This document shows, one piece after another, positions 28,996 to 43,208 of a stretch of 64,000 nucleotides of DNA. Within the stretch, counting starts at the first letter, position 1. The number at the start of each line of letters is the position of its first letter. The position numbers and the translations under genes are program-made. Location: NCBI GenBank assembly GCA_900537185.1, contig LS999826.1, forward strand, positions 1 through 64,000, read 5' to 3'. Below the pieces are notes generated by a model that ran no database searches, had not been told where the DNA came from, and saw only the letters and a program-made list of their open reading frames with translations. This DNA is from Cytophagales bacterium Alg240-R148. GTDB lineage: Bacteria > Bacteroidota > Bacteroidia > Cytophagales > Cyclobacteriaceae.

Positions 28996-31338
28996 ATGGG
29001 GCAATTTTTCCAAAAGCTTTCAATAAAAATGAAAATTGCTGTATTAATAACAGTACTCATGGTAGTAACTGTTAGCAGTATTTTTGTTTCCTGGTTTGCA
29101 CACCAACAGCATGTTCCAACTTTTACTAGCCAGCACCTTATACAAGATGTTCAATTTGATTTAATCGAATTGAAAGGGCAGTTGTTGCTAATTAGAGCAG
29201 GAGGGGACCAAGGCAAAGGGTTGGTGGCTTCTAAAATCAAAGACATAGACGAACGCATTGGTATGTTGTCTCGTGAATCTGAATACAAGGGGGTTAGAAT
29301 GGAACCACTAAGTGGTAGTGCGGACTTAGCGCTGCAAAGCCTAGAAAGTGCGTGGTATGGATATAAATCCTATTTAAATAGGCTTATTTCAGCCCCGAAA
29401 GAAATAGATACGGTGGTTTGGCGGAACGAATATTTGCCTTTGGCAGATACTTCCATTGTATTGGCCAATCAAGCAGTTAAAAAAGTGATTACAATTGCCA
29501 ACCCTAGGTACGAACAAGCCTTGGGGTCTTCTCTGATACACATCGATGACCTTGTTGTAAAAGTAGATGAAATGGCAGGAGACTATGGCTACCAACAAAG
29601 AGCCAACTCCAGTATTTGGAAATTCTCAGCTGCCTTGCTCTTGCTTTGTTTTGTGGTGTACTTTGTCATATTTAGGGCCTTGGATTTGATGCTGGTTACT
29701 CCATTAAAACAAATTTCTAATGTTGCCAATCGCATGCTCCAAAATAAAAAAATTGAAGATCCTGGAATTAACCCCCAATTGGAAACGGGCAAGATAGCAA
29801 AGGCCTTGGTAGCGTTGGATGTTCGAATGAATGAAGCCAAAGAATACGCCTTGAAACTTTCTAATGGCGAACTGGATGAAACTATTCAGGGATACCAAGA
29901 GGAGGAAGAAAAAGAAGGAAAAAGCATGTTGGGTGGGTTGTTTACTGTCAAAGATAATTTGTTAGAAATTCGAGTAAAAGAAAAAAGAGCTACATGGGTC
30001 AACGAAGGAATCACTAAATTTGTTGATTTGCTAAGAAATGATTTTACCAGCCTAGAAAATTTTGGAGATGCCATTTTACACAACTTGGTTCCATATATGG
30101 ACGGCTTATTGGGTTCTTTGTATGTAGTAGAAGAAGTAGATGGGGAAACGCAGCTGGTCATGAAAGGCAAGTACGCGTATGGGAATAAAAAACATGAAAA
30201 TCAGGTGCTGGAGCCAGGAGAAGGATTGGTTGGACAGGTCTATTTAGAGAAGAAAAATATTCATTTAACCGAAGTTCCAGAAAATTTCTTAACCATACAG
30301 ACGAGCATCGGGGAAACAGCACCCAATGCCGTTTTAATATTTCCTTTGATGCTCAATGAAGAAGTATTTGGCGTGGTTGAAATTGGTTCTCTGCAAGTTT
30401 TTGAGCAGTTTGAGATTGAATTCATCAACCGCCTATCCGAGCTATTGGCTTCTTCCATCAATTCGGTAAAAACAAATGCTACCACCAACAAGCTTTTGGA
30501 AGAAACCCAGCAAATGACCGAGCAAATGAGGGCGCAAGAAGAAGAAATGCGTCAAAATATGGAAGAGCTCTCCGCTACCCAAGAGGAGATGGCAAGAAAA
30601 GAAATTGAAATGACTGGGCAAATTGATGCTTTCAAGGCACTGCCTTACCTAGAATTCAATCTGGATTTCACTTTTGGATCAGCAAGTGCAGCATTTTCTA
30701 GGATCATAGGGGTGGAGTCGAGTGATTTCTCAGGTCTTTCTTTGAGCCAAATTATTGAGCCTGTAGATGGTAGTTCTGATTTTGAAGAGGTTATAAGAAA
30801 TGGAGAGTTGGTTGAAATAGAGCACGCTTTTAAAGGAGATAGTCGGATTTTCTATTCGTATGTAATACCGGTTAAAAATAAAAAAACGGCGGATCTAATA
30901 AAAATTATAGTGGTGACAGAATCGGCTGGGGTGCAAACGGAAGGGCATGGCCATGTGTCCACTCAACTGGATCAATTGATGTTGGAAGAAATTGAAGGGT
31001 TGAAAATTGCTAGAGAATCTGTTGTAGGCAAAAACCAAACCCTTTCTAGAATTGAGAAGTATCTGTACCAGCAAAAACAAGCAGAATTGGCGGTTGCTGA
31101 AACAAAGGGCAATGTTATAACTAGAGCCAATACAGCTTTTAAGTCTTTGTTTAGCGCAGAAGAAAACGACGTGATTGGCAAACAACTTTCGGATCTTGCT
31201 TCTGCCTTCGATGCTGGAGTGAAACAAGGGTACGAGGAGGTGACTATTGAGTCTTCAAAGGGTACCACAGTCCATGTGGTATTGGTTCATCCAATAGAGG
31301 GTGGCGCAGAAGACAATTTTAGGATTACCTTGTTGTAA
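28996..31338 (+). CDS. Membrane receptor with HAMP, GAF, coiled coil and PAS, lacking an MCP domain
   Basis: This 780-residue sensor opens the signalling block. Helix 1 (about 10-32) and helix 2 (about 208-232) enclose a helical extracytoplasmic sensor, followed by a HAMP segment (about 232-290). A GAF domain (about 349-492) contains GEGLVGQVY. A Glu/Gln-rich coiled coil (about 499-549) contains MRQNMEELSATQEEMARKE, and two PAS-like parts follow (about 550-640 and 690-780). There is no MCP signalling hairpin, kinase or cyclase domain. Genes for CheR and CheB follow, so the Glu-rich helix may be their methylation target. The GAF domain closely resembles those of the two GAF proteins downstream. 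The gene is transcribed away from the saccharopine dehydrogenase gene. Confidence 0.87.
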   Translation: MGQFFQKLSIKMKIAVLITVLMVVTVSSIFVSWFAHQQHVPTFTSQHLIQDVQFDLIELKGQLLLIRAGGDQGKGLVASKIKDIDERIGMLSRESEYKGVRMEPLSGSADLALQSLESAWYGYKSYLNRLISAPKEIDTVVWRNEYLPLADTSIVLANQAVKKVITIANPRYEQALGSSLIHIDDLVVKVDEMAGDYGYQQRANSSIWKFSAALLLLCFVVYFVIFRALDLMLVTPLKQISNVANRMLQNKKIEDPGINPQLETGKIAKALVALDVRMNEAKEYALKLSNGELDETIQGYQEEEEKEGKSMLGGLFTVKDNLLEIRVKEKRATWVNEGITKFVDLLRNDFTSLENFGDAILHNLVPYMDGLLGSLYVVEEVDGETQLVMKGKYAYGNKKHENQVLEPGEGLVGQVYLEKKNIHLTEVPENFLTIQTSIGETAPNAVLIFPLMLNEEVFGVVEIGSLQVFEQFEIEFINRLSELLASSINSVKTNATTNKLLEETQQMTEQMRAQEEEMRQNMEELSATQEEMARKEIEMTGQIDAFKALPYLEFNLDFTFGSASAAFSRIIGVESSDFSGLSLSQIIEPVDGSSDFEEVIRNGELVEIEHAFKGDSRIFYSYVIPVKNKKTADLIKIIVVTESAGVQTEGHGHVSTQLDQLMLEEIEGLKIARESVVGKNQTLSRIEKYLYQQKQAELAVAETKGNVITRANTAFKSLFSAEENDVIGKQLSDLASAFDAGVKQGYEEVTIESSKGTTVHVVLVHPIEGGAEDNFRITLL

Positions 31339-31443
31339 ATAAATAAAAAAGGATAAATGTTTTTACATTATCAGAAAAATATTGAATTTTAATATAATCC
31401 CTAGTGGATAAAATAAGGACGAAGGATAATTGGAAAATATTAG

Positions 31444-32268
31444 ATGAAAGAAATAGAAATAGCATCTTTGAAACGGTTAACAGAATTTGTAAAGCTAAAT
31501 TTTGGCTATGACTTTACAAATTATGCAATGTCGTCTTTTAAGAGAAGAATATCCAGGATTCTTGAGCTATACAACATCAACTCTGTAGAAAATCTAATCA
31601 CAAAACTGGATACAGAAAAAGATTTTATTGAGACGTTTATAGTAGAAATTACTGTGAATGTTACGGAAATGTTCAGAGATCCATCCTTTTGGAGGGTGCT
31701 GCGTGACGATGTTATTCCTGGTATTTTATTGAATCACGAAAGAATTAAAATCTGGCATGCAGGATGTTCTTCTGGTGAGGAAGTGTTTTCAATGGCCATA
31801 ATGTTGAAAGAAATGGGCATTTTGAACAATGCCACTATCATTGCCACCGATTTAGATAAAGACATTCTAAAACGCGCCCAAATGGGCAAATATACTTTGA
31901 AAAACATGGAGCTTAATTCAAAGAATTACATCCGGTTTCAAGGCAATCACAAACTAGAAGATTATTACAGTGTAAAAAATAATCTTGCAGTTTTAAATCC
32001 AGATTTAATTAGCAATGTTTCGTTTCGCTCACACGATTTAGTCAAAGGCGATATATTCAATAAGTTTGATTTAATTTTATGCAGAAATGTCATGATTTAC
32101 TTCAATCAAAACCTTCAAAATGAAGTGTTGAGGAGGTTCCATGGTAGTTTGTTTAAGTTTGGTTATTTGGCCATAGGGTCCAAAGAGTCTTTGATTTGGT
32201 GTGATATTGCTAATAAGTTTATTGTAGTTAATAATGAGGAAAAGATTTACAAAAAATTCAGAGATTAA
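31444..32268 (+). CDS. cheR: CheR-type protein-glutamate methyltransferase
   Basis: This 274-residue enzyme methylates Glu side chains using S-adenosylmethionine. The N-terminal CheR_N helices (FKRRISRILELYN) and the catalytic domain are complete. The SAM site reads IWHAGCSSGEEVFSMAI and the acidic ribose contact is in IIATDLDKDIL. The substrate-side motif is LILCRNVMIYFNQ. There is no beta-subdomain pentapeptide tether or TPR extension that I can identify. The gene is stand-alone in the sense that no MCP, CheA, CheW or CheY is in the window. Its likely targets are the receptor upstream and the phosphatase downstream. Confidence 0.93.
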   Translation: MKEIEIASLKRLTEFVKLNFGYDFTNYAMSSFKRRISRILELYNINSVENLITKLDTEKDFIETFIVEITVNVTEMFRDPSFWRVLRDDVIPGILLNHERIKIWHAGCSSGEEVFSMAIMLKEMGILNNATIIATDLDKDILKRAQMGKYTLKNMELNSKNYIRFQGNHKLEDYYSVKNNLAVLNPDLISNVSFRSHDLVKGDIFNKFDLILCRNVMIYFNQNLQNEVLRRFHGSLFKFGYLAIGSKESLIWCDIANKFIVVNNEEKIYKKFRD

Positions 32269-32294
32269 GATCTTGAAAATTTTGGGACTTTAGG

Positions 32295-32894
32295 ATGGTG
32301 AAATCACAACTGCATAATAGATATAAAGCGATTGTAATAGGAGGATCGGCAGGGAGCTTTCAGGGAGTAGTTAAAATTCTTTCGAATATTCCGGAAAATT
32401 TTCCTTTGCCTATAATTATGTGTTTGCATAGACTGAAGCACGTGCGGCATGGTTTTGTAGAGGCTTTGTCTATAAAAAGTAACCTAGAAGTTAGGGAGCC
32501 TTACGATAAGGAAGGGGTTAAAAAAGGAATGGTTTATTTGGCTCCGGCCAATTACCATATGTCTTTGGAACTGGGCAATTATTTTAGTATGTCTACAGAA
32601 GAAATGATCAACAATTCGAGACCCGCGATAGATATAACCTTGGGTTCTGCTGGTTATGTGTACAAGGACAGGTTGGTGGGTATTCTTCTTTCGGGAGCAA
32701 ATAAGGATGGAGCGTTAGGAATGAAAAGGATCAAAGATAGAGGAGGGTATACCATTGTTCAAGATCCTGATGAGTGTATGATTCCAACAATGCCGAATGC
32801 AGCATTGGCTGTAACGGAAATAGACATGAAATTAAAGGTAGATGAAATAGTCAAATTTTTATTGGATTTGGCGAAACTGTATAAAAAATATTGA
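32295..32894 (+). CDS. cheB: CheB-type protein-glutamate methylesterase without receiver domain
   Basis: This 199-residue protein is only the catalytic domain of CheB, which removes methyl groups (and deamidates Gln) on receptors. The Ser-His-Asp triad is visible as IGGSAGSFQGV, CLHRLKHVRHGF and LLSGANKDGALGM. The phospho-receiver domain that normally controls CheB is absent, so activity must be constitutive or controlled by partners. It follows cheR by 26 bases and forms a matched methylation/demethylation pair with it. Confidence 0.92.
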   Translation: MVKSQLHNRYKAIVIGGSAGSFQGVVKILSNIPENFPLPIIMCLHRLKHVRHGFVEALSIKSNLEVREPYDKEGVKKGMVYLAPANYHMSLELGNYFSMSTEEMINNSRPAIDITLGSAGYVYKDRLVGILLSGANKDGALGMKRIKDRGGYTIVQDPDECMIPTMPNAALAVTEIDMKLKVDEIVKFLLDLAKLYKKY

Positions 32895-32981
32895 GGAAGG
32901 CTTCCTTTAAATTATTATTCTGAGTATACTTAACTGTTTAAGTGGTCTGGTAGTTCAGAATCCAAAACTTAATAGTGCTTT

Positions 32982-33821
32982 ATGAAGTCAAATAAACGTA
33001 ATCAAGTTATTTTATTATTCTTATTTGTAATAGGAATTGCGGTTTCTGTATTTAAACTCTTCACCATTAAAGAAGATTTGGTATTGAACGTGCAAGCCCT
33101 TTCAAAGGAAAACTTAATGGAGGTAGGCCAAGTGGTGAACCCTTTATTAGCTGTTGTAGGAATAACATTGTTGATGGGTTTAATTTCAATTTTACCATTG
33201 TATTTTAAAAGAGACGAAAAAGGAAAGCTAGAGTTTGGGGAGACGGATATGACGGAGAGTGATGAAACATCTGAAGAGGAAGAAAAAGAGGAAGAATTGA
33301 AAAGTGATTATTCGGGCATATTGACTACCATCCAAAGTAATTCTAAAAAAGCAAAAGATGGGCAATTGAAAGACCAAGCATTTTTAAATGGTGTTTGTAG
33401 TGCGGTAGAAGCGGGACAGGGAGTGTTGTATAGAAAAGAAGAACAGGAAGGCAAACGCTTCATGACTTTTTCTGCTGGATATGCATTTTCGATTGCTGAA
33501 AGTGAAACACTGAAATTTGAATATGGGGAAGGTCTCGTAGGGCAAGTAGCAAAAGAAGGGTCGTTATTGACCATAGAGGACATTCCGCAAAACTATGTAA
33601 AAATTGTTTCTGGTTTAGGGCAAGCTTCACCTGAATTTTTATTAGTGGTTCCTATAAAAGAGGGAGACAATGTATCAGGTATAATGGAGATTGCTACTTT
33701 TAAGCAGCTTAAAAAAGGGCAAATAGAAATGATACAAAAGGCTGTGGAAGAAGTTTTCAAAGTAAAAATGAAGGCAGCTCCCAAGACAAAATCTATTCCT
33801 AAAACAAAGAAAGAAGAATAA
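32982..33821 (+). CDS. Two-helix membrane GAF-domain protein
   Basis: This 279-residue protein has two membrane helices (about 8-28 and 54-75) and a highly acidic Glu/Asp-rich linker (about 85-105, DETSEEEEKEEELK). A GAF domain (about 120-260) follows, with GEGLVGQVAKEGSLLTIEDI and a short basic tail rich in Lys. It has no output domain. The GAF sequence, including the IPxNYxKI segment and VPIKEGDNVSGIMEIA, parallels the GAF domains of the flanking receptor and phosphatase, as if copied within the cluster. It probably acts as a sensor subunit or adaptor for them. The stop is 12 bases before the phosphatase start. Confidence 0.82.
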   Translation: MKSNKRNQVILLFLFVIGIAVSVFKLFTIKEDLVLNVQALSKENLMEVGQVVNPLLAVVGITLLMGLISILPLYFKRDEKGKLEFGETDMTESDETSEEEEKEEELKSDYSGILTTIQSNSKKAKDGQLKDQAFLNGVCSAVEAGQGVLYRKEEQEGKRFMTFSAGYAFSIAESETLKFEYGEGLVGQVAKEGSLLTIEDIPQNYVKIVSGLGQASPEFLLVVPIKEGDNVSGIMEIATFKQLKKGQIEMIQKAVEEVFKVKMKAAPKTKSIPKTKKEE

Positions 33822-33833
33822 AACTTATCCAGT

Positions 33834-36800
33834 ATGTTTAAAAATATAAAGATAGGTGCTAAGATTACTATATTGGTTGTTGCCATTGTTGTAATAACCG
33901 TGGTCGTAGCCAGTTATCAATCTTATAACTGGAGTATTAGAAACCTTGAATTACAATACAGTGAGAATCTTAAGGTCCAAGCGGATAATAGGACCAAAAG
34001 TGTGAATGCGAAATTAGAAGAGATTCGATTGCACACCACCCATCTAATTAATTTTGAAAGTGTCAAAAACCTTTCTGCTGGAGATGGTTTTAACGATGAT
34101 GCTGCTTCTCTAGATTTTTCTGATTCTAGCGGGGATGACTTTGCGGATGATACTGCGGTTGCATCCGAAAGTGGCGATTTTGCAGACGATACTTCGAGTT
34201 CTGAAACTTCAGAGTTATCAGATGATTCCGACTTTGCGGATGATTCTGACTTTGCAACAGATGATTTTGCAGAGGATACCCCAGTAGAAGATACTGCTAC
34301 CGATGACGTCTTTTTGGACGATAGCAGTACAATGGATAGTTTTGATGATGGATTCAATGACGATTCAGGTAGTATGGACTTTGGAGGTTTTGGTGCGGAG
34401 AATACAACGGAGAACGGTGCTGGAGCAGATGAAGCGGATGCCATGGCAAGATTGACAGAAGCTAAAAAATTATTGGGTTATAGTTCTATCGAATTGGTGG
34501 ATAAGAACAATGGGTTGGTGGTTGTTACTTCGGAAGACAACAAAGGAAAGAAGTTTGAAGGGCCTGATTTGTTTGTGGCGAAAGTGCTAGAAAATGGCGC
34601 CTACTTCAGCGATGTAAAAGACGGGGAGTATGCTTATTTTGGAGCCTCTTCGACCAGTGGCAGCCATGTTTTGGCTGTGAAATTTTCATTGTCGGAATTT
34701 AAAGATTCTTGGAATGATTTCAGTGGTTTAGGAAAGACAGGGGAGATTGTAGTTGGTACAATAGATGAGAAGAGTGATCTAATAGTGTTTATCAATGAGT
34801 TGCGATTAAAAGAAGAAAGCAGCACGCGTTCCATAGATTTAAAAGGCTCGGAAGGTTCACCAATGAGAATGGCAATTGACGGAGAAGAGGGTTCTGGTGC
34901 ATTTGTCGATTATAGAAAGAAAAAAACACTGGCAAGTTGGCGTTCTATTCCAAGTACCAATTGGGGGATGTTGGTTAAAATCGACCAATCAGAAATAAAT
35001 GCAGAAGCCACAGCACTTATATTTAGGTTTGTGTTTTTTGGTTTGTTCATTGCTATTTTTTCCATTGTTTTGGCCGTAATATTTGCTAGAGTTTTCGTAA
35101 AACCAATGCAGAGTCTGAAAGAGTCCTTAGATGAAATCGGGCGTGGTGTATTGCCGTTAAAAGTAAAGAATTCAAGCAACGATGAAATTGGGCTGATGGC
35201 GCTGACTGTAAATAACTTGGTGCAGGGCCTTAGAAGAACAGCAACTTTTGCAAATAAAATTGGGGAAGGAGATTTTGATGCGGATTTTGAACCAATGAGT
35301 GCACAAGATACTTTGGGTCAAGCCCTAATTGCAATGCGAGATAATTTGATTGAGGCAGAAAAAAGAGACAAGCAACGCAATTGGATTGTAACTGGGGTAG
35401 CAGAAATTGGGGATATTTTAAGAGCGCATAACAACTTGGATGAACTTGGTGATGATGTTGTCAAGTTTATTATCGAAAAAATTGGTGCAGTCCAAGGGGC
35501 CTTTTATGTAGTGAATGAAAACGAAGAAGGCGATAACCTTATTGAACTGACAAGCAGTTTTGCTTACAACAGAAAAAAATACATCGATGCGAAATTTAAA
35601 TTCGCAGAAGGCCTCATCGGACAATCGGCCATTGAGCAATCTACTGTACTCCGTACGGAAATTCCAGAAGACTATGTCACCATAACATCCGGTATTCTAG
35701 GGGAGCAAAAACCAACCTGTATTTTGATTGTGCCTCTGATTACCAATGAACAAGTTTTTGGAGTTTTGGAATTTGCTGGATTCAGTCAATTTGGGGAGAC
35801 AGAAGTGAAATTTGTTGAAGAATTGAGTTTGAGTTTGGCCAGAACCGTATTCAATATCAAGGTAAACGAAAGAACCAGGAAACACTTGGAGGAGTCGCAG
35901 ACCATGAGTACAGAGTTGAAGGAAAAACAAGAAGTGCTGCGCCAGAATGCAGAAGAGATGCAAGCCACTCAGGAAGAGCTGAGAAGATCGAATTCGAGAT
36001 TGGAAGAGCAAATTATTGAAGTGAACAATACGCAAAATAGAATGCAGTTGCTTCTTGAAAATGCTTCGGAAGTAATAACCATTTATGAAGAAGATGAAAC
36101 GATCCGATACATTAGCCCTTCCGTTGAACCAATTTTAGGTTATGGCCATGAAGAACTGATTGGATCAAAAGATATTGACAATGTATTGCCAGAGTATATT
36201 GAGTTGGTGCAAAATATGTTTGTTAAGTTAATTGAAAATCCTTACGAACAAGTAACCATACAATACGAGTACAAAACTAAATCTGGCGATAGCATTTGGA
36301 TAGAGTCTACCGGAACAAATTTCTTAAGCAATCCGGCCATTCAAGGGATAATAGTCAATTCTCAGGATATTACAGAAAGACGTCGAGCGGAACAAGAGCA
36401 AAGGATGCGATCTAAAATGCAGGCCTTATCAGAGAACTCCCCTGATTTAATTACAAGACTTGAAAAAGGCGGACCTATTTCCTATATCAACCCGATAATT
36501 GAAAGTTATACTGGAAATGACCCAGCCAATTATCTGAATTTCAATATGAACGACACGGACTTCAACCAGCAAGTGGTGGATACTTGGGCGAACATATTGA
36601 ATGAAATTCAAGAGACCAATGAAAAAGTCGCAATGGAGATGGATTTTCCATCTGTAATGGGAGACCGGGTAATGCAAGTCAATGCCATTCCAGAATTTGA
36701 CGATGAAAACGGGTTAGAGTCCGTGCTATTGGTTTCCCATGATATTACCGAAAGAAAGGTGATTGAATTGGAAATCCAGAATAAGAATAAAAAGATTAAC

Positions 36801-37547
36801 GATAGTATCAACTACGCCAAGAGAATTCAAGGTGCGATCCTTCCAAATACGAATGTGATCAACAGAACGTTGGCACAGTCATTCATATTGTACAAACCAA
36901 AAGATGTGGTGAGTGGTGATTTTCCATGGTACATTCAAACAGATGAGTTTGTGTTTATAGCTGCAGTGGATTGTACAGGTCATGGAGTTCCAGGAGCATT
37001 GCTTTCCTTAATAGGGTATTTCTTGCTAAACGACATCGTTAAAAGTAGGAAAATCACCGATCCGGGATTGATCTTGGACCAGTTGGATGAGGGAGTAACC
37101 AAAACTTTAAGACAGGACCAAGAAGATTCCAAAACAAAAGATGGAATGGACATTGGGCTTTGTAAGATTGATGTTGCAACCAACTCTCTTGAATATGCAG
37201 GAGCGCATAGACCATTGTATTTGATGAAAGACAATGAGATGGTTGAAGTAAAAGGAAATAAATTTGCCATTGGTGGAGGTATTTATAAGAATCAGACCAA
37301 TTTCACCAACCACAAATTTGTAATGAAAAAGAATGATTCGATCTTCTTCTGTTCAGATGGATATCCGGATCAATTTGGTGGGCCTGATAACAGGAAATTT
37401 GGGCCAAAACGTACCAGAGCATTGGTTGAACAGGTGAAAGATATGTCGATGGGTGAAGCATACGAAGTGTTTAACTCGGAGTGGGAAAACTGGAAAGGGG
37501 AGCAAAAACAAACCGATGATGTATTATTAATTGGTATTAAGTTCTGA
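33834..37547 (+). CDS. HAMP-GAF-PAS-PAS-SpoIIE (PP2C) phosphatase, SiaA-like
   Basis: This 1237-residue sensor phosphatase is the core of the block. A membrane helix (about 8-28) is followed by a large extracytoplasmic region. That region includes an Asp/Ser-rich segment (about 83-193) and a Cache-like part ending before helix 2 (about 396-422). Inside the cell come HAMP (about 420-475), GAF (about 549-674), a coiled coil with RQNAEEMQATQEELRR (about 679-734) and two PAS domains (about 736-850 and 859-983). The SpoIIE phosphatase domain (about 1010-1237) is last. Its metal and core motifs VVSGDF, AAVDCTGHGVPGA, DGMDIGLC, CSDGYPDQFGG and TDDVLLIG appear intact. By position next to siaB and siaC it should dephosphorylate SiaC, as SiaA does in Pseudomonas. 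Confidence 0.9.
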   Translation: MFKNIKIGAKITILVVAIVVITVVVASYQSYNWSIRNLELQYSENLKVQADNRTKSVNAKLEEIRLHTTHLINFESVKNLSAGDGFNDDAASLDFSDSSGDDFADDTAVASESGDFADDTSSSETSELSDDSDFADDSDFATDDFAEDTPVEDTATDDVFLDDSSTMDSFDDGFNDDSGSMDFGGFGAENTTENGAGADEADAMARLTEAKKLLGYSSIELVDKNNGLVVVTSEDNKGKKFEGPDLFVAKVLENGAYFSDVKDGEYAYFGASSTSGSHVLAVKFSLSEFKDSWNDFSGLGKTGEIVVGTIDEKSDLIVFINELRLKEESSTRSIDLKGSEGSPMRMAIDGEEGSGAFVDYRKKKTLASWRSIPSTNWGMLVKIDQSEINAEATALIFRFVFFGLFIAIFSIVLAVIFARVFVKPMQSLKESLDEIGRGVLPLKVKNSSNDEIGLMALTVNNLVQGLRRTATFANKIGEGDFDADFEPMSAQDTLGQALIAMRDNLIEAEKRDKQRNWIVTGVAEIGDILRAHNNLDELGDDVVKFIIEKIGAVQGAFYVVNENEEGDNLIELTSSFAYNRKKYIDAKFKFAEGLIGQSAIEQSTVLRTEIPEDYVTITSGILGEQKPTCILIVPLITNEQVFGVLEFAGFSQFGETEVKFVEELSLSLARTVFNIKVNERTRKHLEESQTMSTELKEKQEVLRQNAEEMQATQEELRRSNSRLEEQIIEVNNTQNRMQLLLENASEVITIYEEDETIRYISPSVEPILGYGHEELIGSKDIDNVLPEYIELVQNMFVKLIENPYEQVTIQYEYKTKSGDSIWIESTGTNFLSNPAIQGIIVNSQDITERRRAEQEQRMRSKMQALSENSPDLITRLEKGGPISYINPIIESYTGNDPANYLNFNMNDTDFNQQVVDTWANILNEIQETNEKVAMEMDFPSVMGDRVMQVNAIPEFDDENGLESVLLVSHDITERKVIELEIQNKNKKINDSINYAKRIQGAILPNTNVINRTLAQSFILYKPKDVVSGDFPWYIQTDEFVFIAAVDCTGHGVPGALLSLIGYFLLNDIVKSRKITDPGLILDQLDEGVTKTLRQDQEDSKTKDGMDIGLCKIDVATNSLEYAGAHRPLYLMKDNEMVEVKGNKFAIGGGIYKNQTNFTNHKFVMKKNDSIFFCSDGYPDQFGGPDNRKFGPKRTRALVEQVKDMSMGEAYEVFNSEWENWKGEQKQTDDVLLIGIKF

Positions 37548-37591
37548 TTTGTATTAAATTAAATTATATTTAAAATTATAAACGTGATCTC

Positions 37592-38134
37592 ATGAAGTAT
37601 ATTTATGAATTGCATCAGATGATGCTGGAACACCATCTTATTCTCGTTTATGAGGGTGAATTTACCCAGGAGATTACCAAATCCATATTGGCGATGGCTG
37701 AGAGAAATATGGATTCATCCGGGGAGGAGTCCAGTGTTAAAAGAAAAGTTTTTAATGTGATGGTCGAAAGCCTTCAAAACATTGTAAAACATGCAGATGC
37801 AAATGGCTCGGCAGAAACAACAAGCCATTCGGCCGTATTTATGATCGGTCGTTCCGAAGAGGAATATGTGATTACCACAGGTAATCCGATTGAAAATCAA
37901 ACTATTGGTGTATTGACTGATAAGCTCGATAAAGTAAACAGTTTAGACCGAGATGGCCTAAAACAACTTTATAAAGAAATTATTAAAAATACAGAAATAT
38001 CAGAAAAAGGAGGAGCAGGTCTTGGTTTTGTGGATATTGCGCGTAAATCAGGAAGGAAATTGGAATACAATTTTGCAAAAATTGATGAGGAAACTTCTTT
38101 TTTCTCTTTAACTGCCTCAATAGGAAGACTTTAA
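37592..38134 (+). CDS. siaB: SiaB-type protein kinase (GHKL/anti-sigma-like)
   Basis: This 180-residue cytosolic protein belongs to the SiaB family (DUF6272), ATP-using kinases that phosphorylate a SiaC partner. The GHKL ATP-site features are recognisable: VFNVMVESLQNIVKHA (N box) and EKGGAGLGFVDIARKSG (G box). It lies 44 bases after the SpoIIE phosphatase and 28 bases before the SiaC-like gene, the same siaA-B-C order as in Pseudomonas aeruginosa. A role opposing the phosphatase follows from that parallel; direct evidence is only the motif and gene order. Confidence 0.88.
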   Translation: MKYIYELHQMMLEHHLILVYEGEFTQEITKSILAMAERNMDSSGEESSVKRKVFNVMVESLQNIVKHADANGSAETTSHSAVFMIGRSEEEYVITTGNPIENQTIGVLTDKLDKVNSLDRDGLKQLYKEIIKNTEISEKGGAGLGFVDIARKSGRKLEYNFAKIDEETSFFSLTASIGRL

Positions 38135-38162
38135 TTTTAGAATTTTAAAAAGAAAAAACACA

Positions 38163-38525
38163 ATGGATATCTTAAATTTAGAGGGTACTGAAGACACTCC
38201 TAAGATAATATTAGACAAGGGAAATGGAATTTATGAAATTTCTGGAAGGTCTCTTCCTGAAGATTCGGCAGAATTTTATCAACCTGTGCTAGATTGGATA
38301 GAAGATTATTCAGGTCAAGCCAACGATACAACTGATTTTGTTTTTAAACTAGAATATTTCAATACTGCATCTTCAAAATTAATCTTAGATGTTCTGTCTG
38401 CTTTGGAAGAAATCGACGGAATGACAATTCTTTGGTATTTTCATGAAGACGACGAAGATATGGAAGAAGCTGGTGAAGAATTTTCTGAATTGGTTGAAAT
38501 TCCATTCGAATTTAAAACATATTAA
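38163..38525 (+). CDS. siaC: SiaC-type regulatory phosphoprotein (DUF1987)
   Basis: This 120-residue protein is the switch molecule of the Sia module. Family features are the N-terminal TPKIILDKGNGIYEISGRSL and the central KLEYFNTASSKLILDVL. Thr68, in the motif YFNTASSK, falls at the number I recall for the phosphorylated Thr of Pseudomonas SiaC. In that system only one phospho-state engages the diguanylate cyclase SiaD. No GGDEF gene is in this window. The next gene encodes a TerB-ABC transporter, which is a candidate partner. Confidence 0.9.
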   Translation: MDILNLEGTEDTPKIILDKGNGIYEISGRSLPEDSAEFYQPVLDWIEDYSGQANDTTDFVFKLEYFNTASSKLILDVLSALEEIDGMTILWYFHEDDEDMEEAGEEFSELVEIPFEFKTY

Positions 38526-38548: not shown

Positions 38549-41500
38549 ATGAGTGAGGAAATACTTAAAGCTTTAACCCAACTTTTTGCCATTATTACCA
38601 AGCAAGATGGGGGGGTGACTGAAAAGGAACGCCAATTTGTAATCGGTTTTTTTAAAAAGGAACTTGACCAAGATTCTGTAAAAGAATACGTGGATCTTTA
38701 CGACAAGTTCGCTGGTTACAAAAAGGAATCTGATAAAGAGTCCGAAAAAAGTGACGCAGAAAAAAGCGAAGAGAAACCCAAACGAAAAAGGAAACTGACC
38801 TCTGTAAGGGACTCTGTTAAAACGCTTGGTATTGGTAAGAAAATAAATAAAACCCTTACTCAAAAACAAAAGGTAGTCGTAATTGTGAAAATTTTGGAGC
38901 TTGTGGGTTCCGATAAGAATTTCACACCCCAGAGAATGGAGATCATTGATACGATTTCCAAAGTTTTTAATATAGGCGATTACGAATATAAATTAATTGA
39001 GAATTTTGTTTTAAAGGAGTTGTTAGATGAACTTCAATTTGATGACATCTTAATAGCAAACAATTCTGAACAAGAAATACGCAAGGTTCTTGAAAAAGAA
39101 GAAGAGGAGGCAGAAACACCGGAACAGGCCAACCATCTAAATGCCAATATAGAAGGTAATTTGGTTTTTATGCGCGTTAAAAGTGTGGACATGTATTTTG
39201 TTAAATACATGGGGCACGATGAAAATGTGCTGAATGGCTTCATCATGATTCCAGATAGAGTCTATCTTTTTTCACAAGGATCTACTATAAAAACAGTTGC
39301 TGGCGATGCCATGTATTACAGTGACTTGGTTGCACATTTTCTGCATGATCTGAAAGTAACTAAACTGTCTTTTAATGCGGAAAACATAGAATTCACCTTC
39401 CCCAACGGTGCGATTGGTTTGCGCGATGTTTCCATTTATGAAGGCCCTGGGAAACTCATTGGCATTATGGGAGCAAGTGGTGCTGGTAAAACAACATTAT
39501 TGAATGTTCTCGCCGGGATAGAAACACCATCTAAGGGGAAAATTTTGATAAATGGTTTGGACCTCAATGCCGAAGCGGATAAACTGCAGGGGGTAATAGG
39601 TTACGTTGCTCAAGATGATTTGCTCATCGAAGAGTTGACCGTATATCAAAACTTATACTACAATGCAAAACTTTGTTTTGCAAATTTGACTGAAGAGGAG
39701 TTAGATGCTAGGGTAATGGAGGTGCTTACTGCGCTAGGATTGGATCAAAGAAGAGATCTTAGAGTAGGAAGTGTACTGGATAAAACGATTAGTGGTGGTC
39801 AAAGAAAACGGCTTAATATCGCATTAGAACTTATCCGAGAACCAGCAGTGATGTTTGTGGATGAACCTACTTCCGGTTTGTCTTCAAGAGATTCAGAAAA
39901 CGTGATAGACCTTTTAAAGGAATTGTCCTTAAAAGGGAAATTGATTTTTGTGGTTATTCACCAGCCATCATCAGACATTTATAAAATGTTTGATAAAATG
40001 TATATGATGGATACCGGTGGGTTTCCAATATTTTATGGAAATCCAGTGGAAGCTGTCACTTACTTTAAGCAATTAACCAACCAAATTGATAGCCAAAGGG
40101 GGCAATGTGAAACCTGCGGTAATGTTAACCCTGAGCAAATATTTAATATTGTTGAAGCCAAGGTGGTGGACGAATACGGCCAGGAAACGAATAAGAGAAA
40201 GGTTACTCCACCACAATGGAATGAGCATTACATCGACAAATTCAAGCTTGTTAAAGTAGAAGATGTTGAAGAGGCACCACCCAATTCTTTGCACATTCCT
40301 TCCAAGTTGAAACAAACGGTAATTTTTACCATAAGAGATACAATATCCAAGTTAAGCAATAAACAGTATTTATTAATTAATTTGTTAGAAGCCCCTTTGT
40401 TGGCTTTTTTATTGGCGTTTATTATTAAGTATAAAAATTCACCAGATAAATCGGAATACTTTTATCGGTTCAATGAAAACATACCAGCCTTCATGCTGAT
40501 GAGTATTATTGTAGCCTTGTTTATGGGGCTAACAGTAAGTGCCGAAGAAATTATTCGAGACAGAAAAATATTAAAACGAGAATCGTTTTTGAACTTGAGC
40601 TGGAACAGTTATTTGGTCTCCAAATTGCTAATTCTTTTTGCTATGTCAGCAATTCAAACCTTGTCGTTTGTATTGATAGGAAATATAATTCTTGAAATTC
40701 AAGGCATGACCTTCAGCTTTTGGTTTGTGTTGTTCACGATTTCTTGTATGTCCAATGTATTGGGCTTGAATGTGTCTTCTGCCTTTAATTCAGCCGTAAC
40801 GGTTTATATCATTATACCGCTGTTGTTAATACCACAGATGATCTTGAGTGGGTTGTTGTTTAATTTTGATAAATTAAATGAACTCATAGGAACCAAGGGC
40901 AAAGTACCATTGGTAGCAGATATGATGGCTTCAAGATGGGCCTATGAAGCCCTAGCCGTTGATCAGTATATGAACAATGAGTTCGAAAAGAAATATTACT
41001 TGCTGGAAAAGGTAGAAAAGGAATCTGATTTCAAATCGGCTTATTTGATAAATGAGCTTCGAAACAAAGCATCTTTCATTCTCGAAAATTATAAATCGGA
41101 TTCGAGCGAATTGATAAAACAAGTAGAAAATGACTTGTTGGTAATACAAAATGAGTTGAGAGAGGAAAAGCAAATTGCAGGCAAAGTGGAGCAAGCAGAA
41201 TCGCTTGGGCAACTTTCTTTGAGTACCTTCGATGCGGCTACGCATAAAGCGCTTTTGGCGTATTTGGAAAACCTTGAAACCCATTACCAAACCCGTTACA
41301 ACAAAGCTGTTCAAAGAAAAGAACAAACAATTTCATTAAATGAAATGAAGGAAGGTGAGGAGAATTACAATACCATGAAGGACCTTTATTTCAATGAGAG
41401 TCTCGCAGAACTTGTAAGAAATATTGCGGTGAAAGAGCGTATAATTGAGCAAAATGGGCAATTATTCCAACAGTTAGAGTCGGTTTACAACAACGGTAAA

Positions 41501-41698
41501 ATACCGAAACATGCAATGGATTATAGGACGCACTTCTTTGCGCCTAAAAAATTCATATTTAATACGTATATTGATACTTATAATTTTAACATGATGGCCA
41601 TATGGGCCATGACACTGGTGTTGTATTTGACTTTGTATTTTGAAGTATTGAGAAAAGTACTTCGATTGTTGAGCAAGATAAAGCTGGGTAAATCATAA
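38549..41698 (+). CDS. ABCG-like ATP-binding/permease protein with TerB-like N-terminal domain
   Basis: This 1049-residue fusion places a helical TerB-like domain (about 1-165, with a Lys/Glu-rich linker near 55-75) in front of an ABC ATPase. The Walker A motif is GASGAGKTT (about 307), the signature ISGGQRKRLN (about 414) and Walker B VMFVDEPTSG (about 434), so it should hydrolyse ATP. A CETCGN Cys pair (near 520) lies between the ATPase and the permease. The membrane domain (about 605-780 and 1012-1035) is split by about 220 residues rich in charged coiled-coil helix. The order resembles an ABCG half transporter. The cargo is unknown. It starts 24 bases after siaC, so it is likely to be output or target of the Sia switch. 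Confidence 0.87.
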   Translation: MSEEILKALTQLFAIITKQDGGVTEKERQFVIGFFKKELDQDSVKEYVDLYDKFAGYKKESDKESEKSDAEKSEEKPKRKRKLTSVRDSVKTLGIGKKINKTLTQKQKVVVIVKILELVGSDKNFTPQRMEIIDTISKVFNIGDYEYKLIENFVLKELLDELQFDDILIANNSEQEIRKVLEKEEEEAETPEQANHLNANIEGNLVFMRVKSVDMYFVKYMGHDENVLNGFIMIPDRVYLFSQGSTIKTVAGDAMYYSDLVAHFLHDLKVTKLSFNAENIEFTFPNGAIGLRDVSIYEGPGKLIGIMGASGAGKTTLLNVLAGIETPSKGKILINGLDLNAEADKLQGVIGYVAQDDLLIEELTVYQNLYYNAKLCFANLTEEELDARVMEVLTALGLDQRRDLRVGSVLDKTISGGQRKRLNIALELIREPAVMFVDEPTSGLSSRDSENVIDLLKELSLKGKLIFVVIHQPSSDIYKMFDKMYMMDTGGFPIFYGNPVEAVTYFKQLTNQIDSQRGQCETCGNVNPEQIFNIVEAKVVDEYGQETNKRKVTPPQWNEHYIDKFKLVKVEDVEEAPPNSLHIPSKLKQTVIFTIRDTISKLSNKQYLLINLLEAPLLAFLLAFIIKYKNSPDKSEYFYRFNENIPAFMLMSIIVALFMGLTVSAEEIIRDRKILKRESFLNLSWNSYLVSKLLILFAMSAIQTLSFVLIGNIILEIQGMTFSFWFVLFTISCMSNVLGLNVSSAFNSAVTVYIIIPLLLIPQMILSGLLFNFDKLNELIGTKGKVPLVADMMASRWAYEALAVDQYMNNEFEKKYYLLEKVEKESDFKSAYLINELRNKASFILENYKSDSSELIKQVENDLLVIQNELREEKQIAGKVEQAESLGQLSLSTFDAATHKALLAYLENLETHYQTRYNKAVQRKEQTISLNEMKEGEENYNTMKDLYFNESLAELVRNIAVKERIIEQNGQLFQQLESVYNNGKIPKHAMDYRTHFFAPKKFIFNTYIDTYNFNMMAIWAMTLVLYLTLYFEVLRKVLRLLSKIKLGKS

Positions 41699-41790
41699 TG
41701 TAGTATAGTGTTGTTAATGTCGCCAGTTTAAAATTATATTTGCATTACATAAATGAATTTTTAATTTTGTTAATAAACAAGTTGACCTTT

Positions 41791-42693
41791 ATGAAGATTT
41801 TAAGGATACTTCCATTAATATTATTAATTGCGGCCTGTGGGACTGAAAATAAAAAGTCTGAGGAAGAGGCCTTTATAGAGAGTTTGGATTCTGTGGAGAA
41901 TACTGGGCCATCCATAGACGAAAATGTCATTGGAGAAATTATTCAACAAGTACCATCTCCTTTAGAGATTTCGGTACTACTTAAGCAATCCGGGACTAAA
42001 TACGATAAGTCTTTGTTGAATTCTACAGACAATATTTCCAATTATAATAGCAACTTTAAAAAGGCTGTTAATTTAGGGATATATGGAACCGACCTAGGGT
42101 ATACCAATATCTACGAAAAAAACCAAGATGGTTTGGACTATATGTCTGGGATTAAAACTCTAGCGGATGGCTTGAACATTGGTCAGTTTTTTGAATTAGA
42201 AACAATTGCCAAATTAGCAACCAATAGCAAAAATTTGGATAGTTTACTTTTAATCACCACGCAGAACTTCAACAGCATCAACCAATACCTACAAGAGCAA
42301 TCTAGATCGCACTTGAGTATTTTGCTGCTTACAGGTGGGTGGATTGAAGCCATGCATATTACTTGTCAAGTTTCGGCCAAAGACCCTACCAACATTGAAT
42401 TGCAGGAAAAGATTGGTGAACAAAAAATCATTTTAGAGAATATTCGATTGTTAATTTCCTTCTATAAGGACAGTGATCCAAAAATGGCAGAGTTATTGTC
42501 AGAGATAGAAAAACTTGAGAAAGTCTTCAATGAAGTTGAGATAACACAGACTTATAAAGAGTCTACGTTTGAAATCGTTGATGGTGTAATGATGATCAAA
42601 GATAATAGCGAAAGCCATATCGAGATTACAAGCGAGAATGTTGAAAACATTATGCGCGTTACAAGTGAGGTTAGAACGAAATTAATTAATTAG
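41791..42693 (+). CDS. Uncharacterised lipoprotein of the Sia/ABC block
   Basis: This 300-residue protein begins with a lipoprotein signal, ILLIAACGTE, with Cys at about residue 15. I chose the ATG at 41791, as an earlier in-frame ATG at 41740 would bury the signal behind 17 residues. The mature part is mainly alpha-helical and acidic, with a low-complexity KKSEEEAF start and heptad-like stretches near 200-260. I recognise no family. It follows the TerB-ABC gene by 92 bases on the same strand and could be an outer- or inner-membrane partner of that transporter. Confidence 0.75.
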   Translation: MKILRILPLILLIAACGTENKKSEEEAFIESLDSVENTGPSIDENVIGEIIQQVPSPLEISVLLKQSGTKYDKSLLNSTDNISNYNSNFKKAVNLGIYGTDLGYTNIYEKNQDGLDYMSGIKTLADGLNIGQFFELETIAKLATNSKNLDSLLLITTQNFNSINQYLQEQSRSHLSILLLTGGWIEAMHITCQVSAKDPTNIELQEKIGEQKIILENIRLLISFYKDSDPKMAELLSEIEKLEKVFNEVEITQTYKESTFEIVDGVMMIKDNSESHIEITSENVENIMRVTSEVRTKLIN

Positions 42694-42720: not shown

Positions 42721-43155
42721 ATGAAAAAGATCAAATATATAGCTGTTTTTATAATGTTTTTTGGATTAGTTGGAATGGACAAGGGGGTAGCGCAATGTAA
42801 TCCTCAAGCCTATACCGATGCCTGTATCCCGAAATTGGCCAATGGTTTTAATTTCCTTAAGAGTTATAAGATCGACGGAGATGGTGGTGCTAAAAGCAAA
42901 GTGGAATACTCTTATGTTTTCACAAAGGGTACGCAATACATGATCAATATTTGTGCTGAAGGAAGCAGCACGGATGGAATTATTGTCACACTATATGATT
43001 CTAGCCGAAAAGCAATTATTTCTAGCAAAGTAAATGGGCAGTACATTTCAGCTATTGCGTATGCCTGTAATACAACTGGAATTTATTATATTAGGTATAC
43101 TTTCGACAATGCCACTAAGTTTTGTGGAGGAAGTGCTTTAGGTTTCAAACGATAA
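42721..43155 (+). CDS. Small secreted beta-sandwich-like protein
   Basis: This 144-residue protein has a signal peptide (about 1-25, ending GVAQ) and a Cys-containing mature part of about 120 residues. The sequence YVFTKGTQYMINICAEG, the repeated small polar turns and GIYYIRYTF suggest a PPC- or jelly-roll-like beta sandwich. This is a fold guess only. It follows the lipoprotein gene by 27 bases and ends just before a strong terminator, so it is probably the last gene of the signalling transcript. Confidence 0.72.
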   Translation: MKKIKYIAVFIMFFGLVGMDKGVAQCNPQAYTDACIPKLANGFNFLKSYKIDGDGGAKSKVEYSYVFTKGTQYMINICAEGSSTDGIIVTLYDSSRKAIISSKVNGQYISAIAYACNTTGIYYIRYTFDNATKFCGGSALGFKR

Positions 43156-43174
43156 AACAAACTTCAATTATATT

Positions 43175-43208
43175 AAAAAAGCTGTGCGCCACGTACAGCT
43201 TTTTTTTT
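43175..43208 (+). terminator. Strong terminator ending the signalling block
   Basis: GCTGTGCG pairs with CGTACAGC (one G-U) around CCA, preceded by six A and followed by nine T. It separates the Sia/ABC block from rarA. Confidence 0.93.

Follow-up and report, generated by a model that had tools for sequence, protein, structure and literature searches.

In the Sia system of Pseudomonas aeruginosa, the gene after siaC encodes the target of the switch, the GGDEF diguanylate cyclase SiaD. In the window analyzed here, a 64,000-nucleotide stretch of contig LS999826.1 from Cytophagales bacterium Alg240-R148, the corresponding position in a Sia-like gene cluster is taken by an ABC transporter with an N-terminal TerB domain, which raises the question of what the switch controls in this organism.

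The SiaA PP2C phosphatase, SiaB kinase and SiaC phosphoprotein families of the SiaABCD system are co-encoded on the forward strand at 33834–38525, in the P. aeruginosa gene order. The siaA-like gene (33834–37547) specifies a 1237-residue protein with a transmembrane part followed by HAMP-GAF-PAS-PAS-SpoIIE/PP2C domains (PF07228, 8e-17), in which the match to the SiaA model NF038263 (2e-63) is confined to the phosphatase end, residues 979–1237, and which differs from the P. aeruginosa protein by its extra GAF and PAS domains. The siaB gene (37592–38134) encodes a 180-residue DUF6272/SiaB family kinase (NF038262, 4.2e-55; SiaB in PDB entry 6kko, 2.2e-15) whose N-box-like glutamate, as read from the sequence, is residue 59. 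SiaC (38163–38525; 120 residues) is a STAS-like DUF1987 protein (PF09345, 1.2e-37; SiaC in 6kko and 7e6g, 5e-15), and its Thr68, within YFN-T-ASSK, coincides by count with the residue that is phosphorylated in P. aeruginosa SiaC (PMC7647112). The scores exceed the cut-offs of the broader SiaB family NF038262 and of the Pfam SiaC family, and fall below the Pseudomonas equivalog cut-offs (215 of 700 bits for NF038263, 93 of 225 for NF038264 and 84 of 150 for NF038265), so we treat the three proteins as family members whose equivalence to the Pseudomonas system is unproven.

The genes run in the order siaA, siaB, siaC, TerB/ABCG transporter, lipoprotein and small secreted protein, and are followed by an intrinsic-terminator-like hairpin on the same strand (43175–43205; a 14-pair stem and a T run), the best of the region, which would end the transcript. 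Since every intergenic gap in this unit is shorter than 100 bp, with 23 bp between siaC and the transporter start, the six genes likely form a single operon. Upstream on the strand of siaA (28996–33821) are genes for a HAMP-GAF-PAS protein, a CheR-like methyltransferase, a CheB-like methylesterase (199 residues) and a membrane GAF protein (32982–33821) that ends 12 bp before siaA; these may provide the switch with its sensory input. The N-terminal sensory part of SiaA itself contains an acidic, Ser/Asp-rich low-complexity stretch with DFADDT-like repeats (34100–34440).

The transporter gene (38549–41698, forward strand; 1049 residues) was recognized by Pfam and TIGR profile matches, which agree with the initial annotation of an ABC ATPase-permease with an N-terminal TerB-like domain directly after SiaC. 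The TerB domain (38570–38995; residues 8–149) scores slightly short of the PF05099 gathering cut-off of 24.4 bits when the full-length protein is scanned (22.7 bits), and exceeds it when the N-terminal fragment is scanned (26.7 bits), which places the N-terminal 150 residues in this family; several relatives score 31–37 bits. A search of PDB sequences with the TerB profile gave no significant match. The ABC ATPase domain (39419–39874; residues 291–442; PF00005, ABC_tran, 1.6e-31) precedes the ABC2_membrane domain (40313–40879; residues 589–777; PF01061, 2.2e-18), and this order within one chain, together with six TM helices, is that of an ABCG half-transporter; the match to TIGR00955 (1.3e-79) and the closest solved structures, PDR-type pumps and ABCG1/ABCG2, are of the same type. 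Compared with other TerB proteins, the domain in the window stands out by its fusion to an ABCG transporter, by a clade-specific SV motif and by its context of Sia and envelope genes.

The charged insert of 220 residues noted earlier in the membrane part is present and somewhat longer, approximately 236 residues (40871–41578, forward strand; residues 775–1010; 29% charged). Hydropathy places it in the predicted interval between TM5 and TM6, and by analogy with ABCG topology it is to be read as a large extracytoplasmic loop, a position that was not part of the earlier description and that, on this topology, rules the insert out as a SiaC site. An FHA domain, suspected by eye between TerB and the ATPase, was likewise discarded, as Pfam gave no FHA match up to an E value of 5 in the window transporter or its relatives. 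FHA domains characterize the Mycobacterium tuberculosis exporter Rv1747, which with its kinase PknF shares with the present locus an ABC exporter, an N-terminal signalling domain and, here putatively, control by a neighbouring Ser/Thr phosphorylation pathway (PMC3908365, PMC5549992); the two differ from it in having FHA domains that bind phospho-threonine and a eukaryote-type kinase, with neither Sia proteins nor TerB.

If the switch acted as in P. aeruginosa, SiaC would govern cyclic-di-GMP, here through an unlinked diguanylate cyclase. This is the known P. aeruginosa output (PMC7647112, PMC8457831), and we nevertheless regard it as extremely improbable, because it is already contradicted within the order: GGDEF domains occur in just three of the 192 genomes of the order, all three of which lack SiaC, and neither the window's genome nor any of the SiaC-positive genomes of the order has one. 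The Sia output there therefore cannot be cyclic-di-GMP, and we reject this output for the order. Of the proposal that the switch controls export rather than cyclic-di-GMP, the exclusion of cyclic-di-GMP thus holds in the order, and export stays putative. In many Bacteroidota, the Sia switch appears to be wired to an ATP-driven membrane transporter in cells without a cyclic-di-GMP synthase. For Sia switches outside Pseudomonas, the published account goes no further than suggesting that DUF1987 proteins modulate adjacent proteins (eLife 2021; PMC8457831).

We then considered whether the transporter and SiaC occur together across genomes, as the initial annotation had recommended. Among the 192 genomes of the order, 101 carry TerB-ABCG, 102 carry SiaC and 100 carry both (phi 0.97), and among 296 genomes of the class the corresponding numbers are 152, 156 and 145 (phi 0.88); the two samples partly overlap, and both the phi values and the Fisher p-values ignore phylogeny. 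SiaC without the transporter was found in two genomes of the order and 11 of the class, and the transporter without SiaC in one and seven, respectively. Hence the transporter is not widespread without Sia genes, SiaC being present in 100 of the 101 transporter-bearing genomes of the order. In the window's own family, six genomes have both genes and 15 have neither. As a control we used SprA, which is present in 172 of the 192 genomes and gives a phi of 0.33 with either gene; on these grounds genome reduction, or joint loss of T9SS and gliding genes, was rejected as the source of the co-occurrence. Exclusion of the 20 genomes without SprA, 19 of which belong to one reduced-genome family (f20), leaves phi at 0.96. 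Concordance within mixed families (f1 and f15), together with several families devoid of both genes, argues against a single event.

The linkage is also visible in gene neighbourhoods. Of the 143 sampled transporter genes, 62 have a siaC gene within 600 bp, in two main arrangements: 41 share the layout of the window, with siaC upstream and co-directional, and in 17, mostly from other orders, siaC is downstream and convergent; the remainder show other positions. Among 80 named loci drawn from a second genome set, which come from Marivirga, Fulvivirga, Chryseolinea, Persicobacter and others, 39 siaC genes immediately precede the transporter gene in the same orientation. The repetition of this arrangement over many families indicates that it is not due to chance, and the linkage of the two genes is conserved. 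In a tree of the 143 TerB-ABCG proteins, three groups stand apart: copies from sia operons of the order, paralogues without sia linkage, and copies from other orders.

Within the window's genome there are three TerB-ABCG genes: the window copy and copies at L014:10036–13122 and L015:9406–12441, which are 47–48% identical to it. Only the window copy adjoins siaC; the other two have neither sia neighbours nor the TerB motif described below, and the L015 copy has an upstream homologue of the lipoprotein (34% identical). The siaC gene occurs at three sites and siaB at two. A second siaB-siaC pair (L016:9366–10279) and a lone siaC (L017:9618–10001) have unrelated neighbours and do not adjoin a TerB-ABCG gene. 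The window SiaC shares a median of 74% identity with the transporter-linked SiaC proteins of the order, a coherent group, and 40–41% with its own two paralogues.

Conservation within the TerB domain reveals a candidate SiaC docking motif, KLTSVRDSVKTLGI (38792–38833, forward strand; residues 82–95), with the consensus [K/R]xTSxxxSV[K/R]xL, which reads KLTSV[KR]DSVKTL in the order and KRTS[LV]NSVK[VI]L elsewhere. It is kept in siaC-linked copies, including those of the second genome set, and has decayed in most duplicates: in the window numbering, S89, V90 and L93 are retained in about 87–94% of the proteins of the sia-operon clade and of other orders, and in 30%, 11% and 32%, respectively, of the unlinked paralogues. 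Genomes with several TerB-ABCG copies usually have exactly one that bears the motif. The strict core motif is present in at least one fetched copy in 97 of 111 SiaC-positive genomes; the other 14 comprise near variants, genomes of which only some copies were read, and two clear exceptions, G301 and G267. Conversely, the motif is found in none of the eight genomes that have the transporter and lack SiaC (G012, G211, G287, G413, G436, G452, G454 and G470), which span five families and represent at least four to five lineages. This tracking of SiaC presence fits TerB as a docking site, as had been suspected for the TerB-like domain as a whole, and the conservation pattern makes the motif the likely contact point of SiaC, with physical docking itself still a candidate. 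A by-eye match between the motif and the SiaC-binding motif in the stalk of SiaD was unconvincing.

A tethered AlphaFold model of SiaC and TerB was obtained from a natural Persicobacter locus (L222), by reading through the stop codons (TAA as Gly) to give a chain of 315 residues, with a 60-row alignment. The model has a pLDDT of 85 and a pTM of 0.54; at this pTM, SiaC is not placed confidently relative to TerB, and the model speaks neither for nor against binding. The SiaC half resembles P. aeruginosa SiaC, with target TM-scores of 0.86–0.89. The segment equivalent to the motif spans the tail of a charged loop and the N-terminal half of a TerB helix, a location that suggests that it is probably exposed.

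Two precedents bear on how SiaC may engage the transporter. First, in P. aeruginosa the α2 and α3 helices of SiaC, with Thr68 in a central position, form the contact with a helix of SiaD, and phosphorylation (pT68) prevents binding (PMC8457831). Second, MlaB, a STAS protein of Escherichia coli, contacts the ABC ATPase MlaF through helix α2, with Thr52 at the center of the interface, and a phosphomimetic substitution weakens the interaction (PMC7367683). On this analogy, the transporter should be a binding partner of SiaC in its unphosphorylated state, with TerB as the site that the motif pattern indicates. The best explanation, which we consider reasonably probable, is that the window carries a complete Sia partner switch with the TerB-ABCG unit as its output, in which unphosphorylated SiaC docks on TerB and gates the transporter. 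As in P. aeruginosa, Thr68 of SiaC would be phosphorylated by SiaB, and SiaA, acting as a sensor phosphatase in the membrane, would remove the phosphate; unphosphorylated SiaC would then dock on TerB via KLTSVRDSVKTLGI and alter the ATPase cycle of the transporter, whether to activate or to inhibit it, and phosphorylation would free SiaC from TerB.

The MlaB-MlaF pair also suggests a different site, with SiaC acting on the ATPase domain and the TerB motif serving another role. SiaC is STAS-like, MlaB on MlaF is a direct precedent for contact between a STAS protein and an ABC ATPase (PMC7367683), and the tethered model put SiaC on TerB without confidence; the feature that tracks SiaC nevertheless sits in TerB, the part covered by the scan, which makes it partial counter-evidence, and we consider action on the ATPase domain unlikely. 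Both systems would have an ABC transporter acted on by a small protein of STAS fold that carries a conserved threonine. They differ in that MlaFEDB, a phospholipid transporter, has its ATPase and permease as separate subunits together with a periplasmic MCE protein, and in that MlaB, for which no dedicated kinase/phosphatase pair is known, contacts the ATPase rather than a TerB domain.

Two further genes of the unit follow the transporter. The first encodes a mostly helical lipoprotein (41791–42693, forward strand; lipobox LLIAAC), for which we assign the start to the ATG at 41791 rather than to the TTG at 41740 of the listed open reading frame. Its AlphaFold model is confident (pLDDT 88, pTM 0.82), and a fold search of this model against the PDB gave no usable match (best E value 0.9). 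The lipoprotein family is found in exactly the same 101 of the 192 genomes of the order as TerB-ABCG, including one SiaC-less genome, and lies within 1.1 kb of 110 of the 143 transporter genes; judged by this identical phyletic pattern, it is the lipoprotein, rather than SiaC, that is the tightest partner of the transporter. The second gene encodes a 144-residue secreted protein (42721–43155, forward strand) with a signal peptide and no Pfam match, homologues of which are found in 89 of the 143 transporter neighbourhoods; conserved cysteines are seen in this family.

A role at the cell envelope is suggested by the extracytoplasmic loop of 236 residues, by the obligate lipoprotein and by the secreted protein: the transporter, with the lipoprotein and usually the secreted protein acting from the opposite side of the membrane, would export an envelope compound or act on the envelope in some other way. 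The transporter, lipoprotein and secreted protein could also be read as a self-contained envelope system, with the Sia genes as co-regulated neighbours that have another target. The lipoprotein pattern, the two of three copies in the window's genome that are unlinked to sia, and the several SiaC-less genomes that retain the transporter are all compatible with this; co-regulation alone, however, would not be expected to produce near-perfect co-occurrence even for unlinked genes, or the lack of the motif in genomes without SiaC, and we regard independence from SiaC as improbable. If the proposed gating is correct, the Sia-TerB-ABCG unit would represent an envelope system conserved in roughly half of the Bacteroidia sampled.

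Signalling in the reverse direction, in which TerB-ABCG senses the state of the envelope and accordingly captures SiaC or sets it free to act at another site, would be compatible with the docking data, which fit both directions, and with the several SiaC paralogues in many genomes. In P. aeruginosa, however, SiaC is the messenger and the product of the adjacent gene its target (PMC8457831), and we consider reversal quite improbable. Gating of the transporter by SiaC is the reading we retain. In its more specific form, a Ser/Thr partner switch would directly gate an ABC transporter, with TerB as the receptor of unphosphorylated SiaC, in a six-gene envelope system of Bacteroidota where the Sia switch operates without cyclic-di-GMP; we put the chances of this at about even. 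If correct, it would link partner switching directly to ABC transport and give a function to a TerB domain. The literature searched contained no paper connecting DUF1987/SiaC to TerB or to an ABC transporter, and none on this envelope system of Bacteroidia. With a specific candidate target, a specific candidate motif for docking and, as a natural control, the genomes that lack both SiaC and the motif, the question is directly testable.

Several genomes depart from the common pattern. G267 and its relatives (family f61) have a strongly diverged TerB-ABCG without the motif and four to five SiaC genes, and may use another docking mode. Six SiaC-positive genomes, in which TerB-ABCG is absent even at an E value of 1e-20 (G005, G015, G227, G234, G325 and G428), are candidates for further Sia outputs. 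Up to 21 SiaC paralogues per genome were counted in G044, G094 and G116 against only two TerB-ABCG genes, so that other targets must exist for the majority of SiaC proteins in these genomes. Finally, SiaC domains were observed inside open frames of approximately 325–350 residues (G019:C11:67788–68138, G034:C72:30449–30799, G066:C1:382644–382991 and others), which are possibly fusions of SiaC with another domain.
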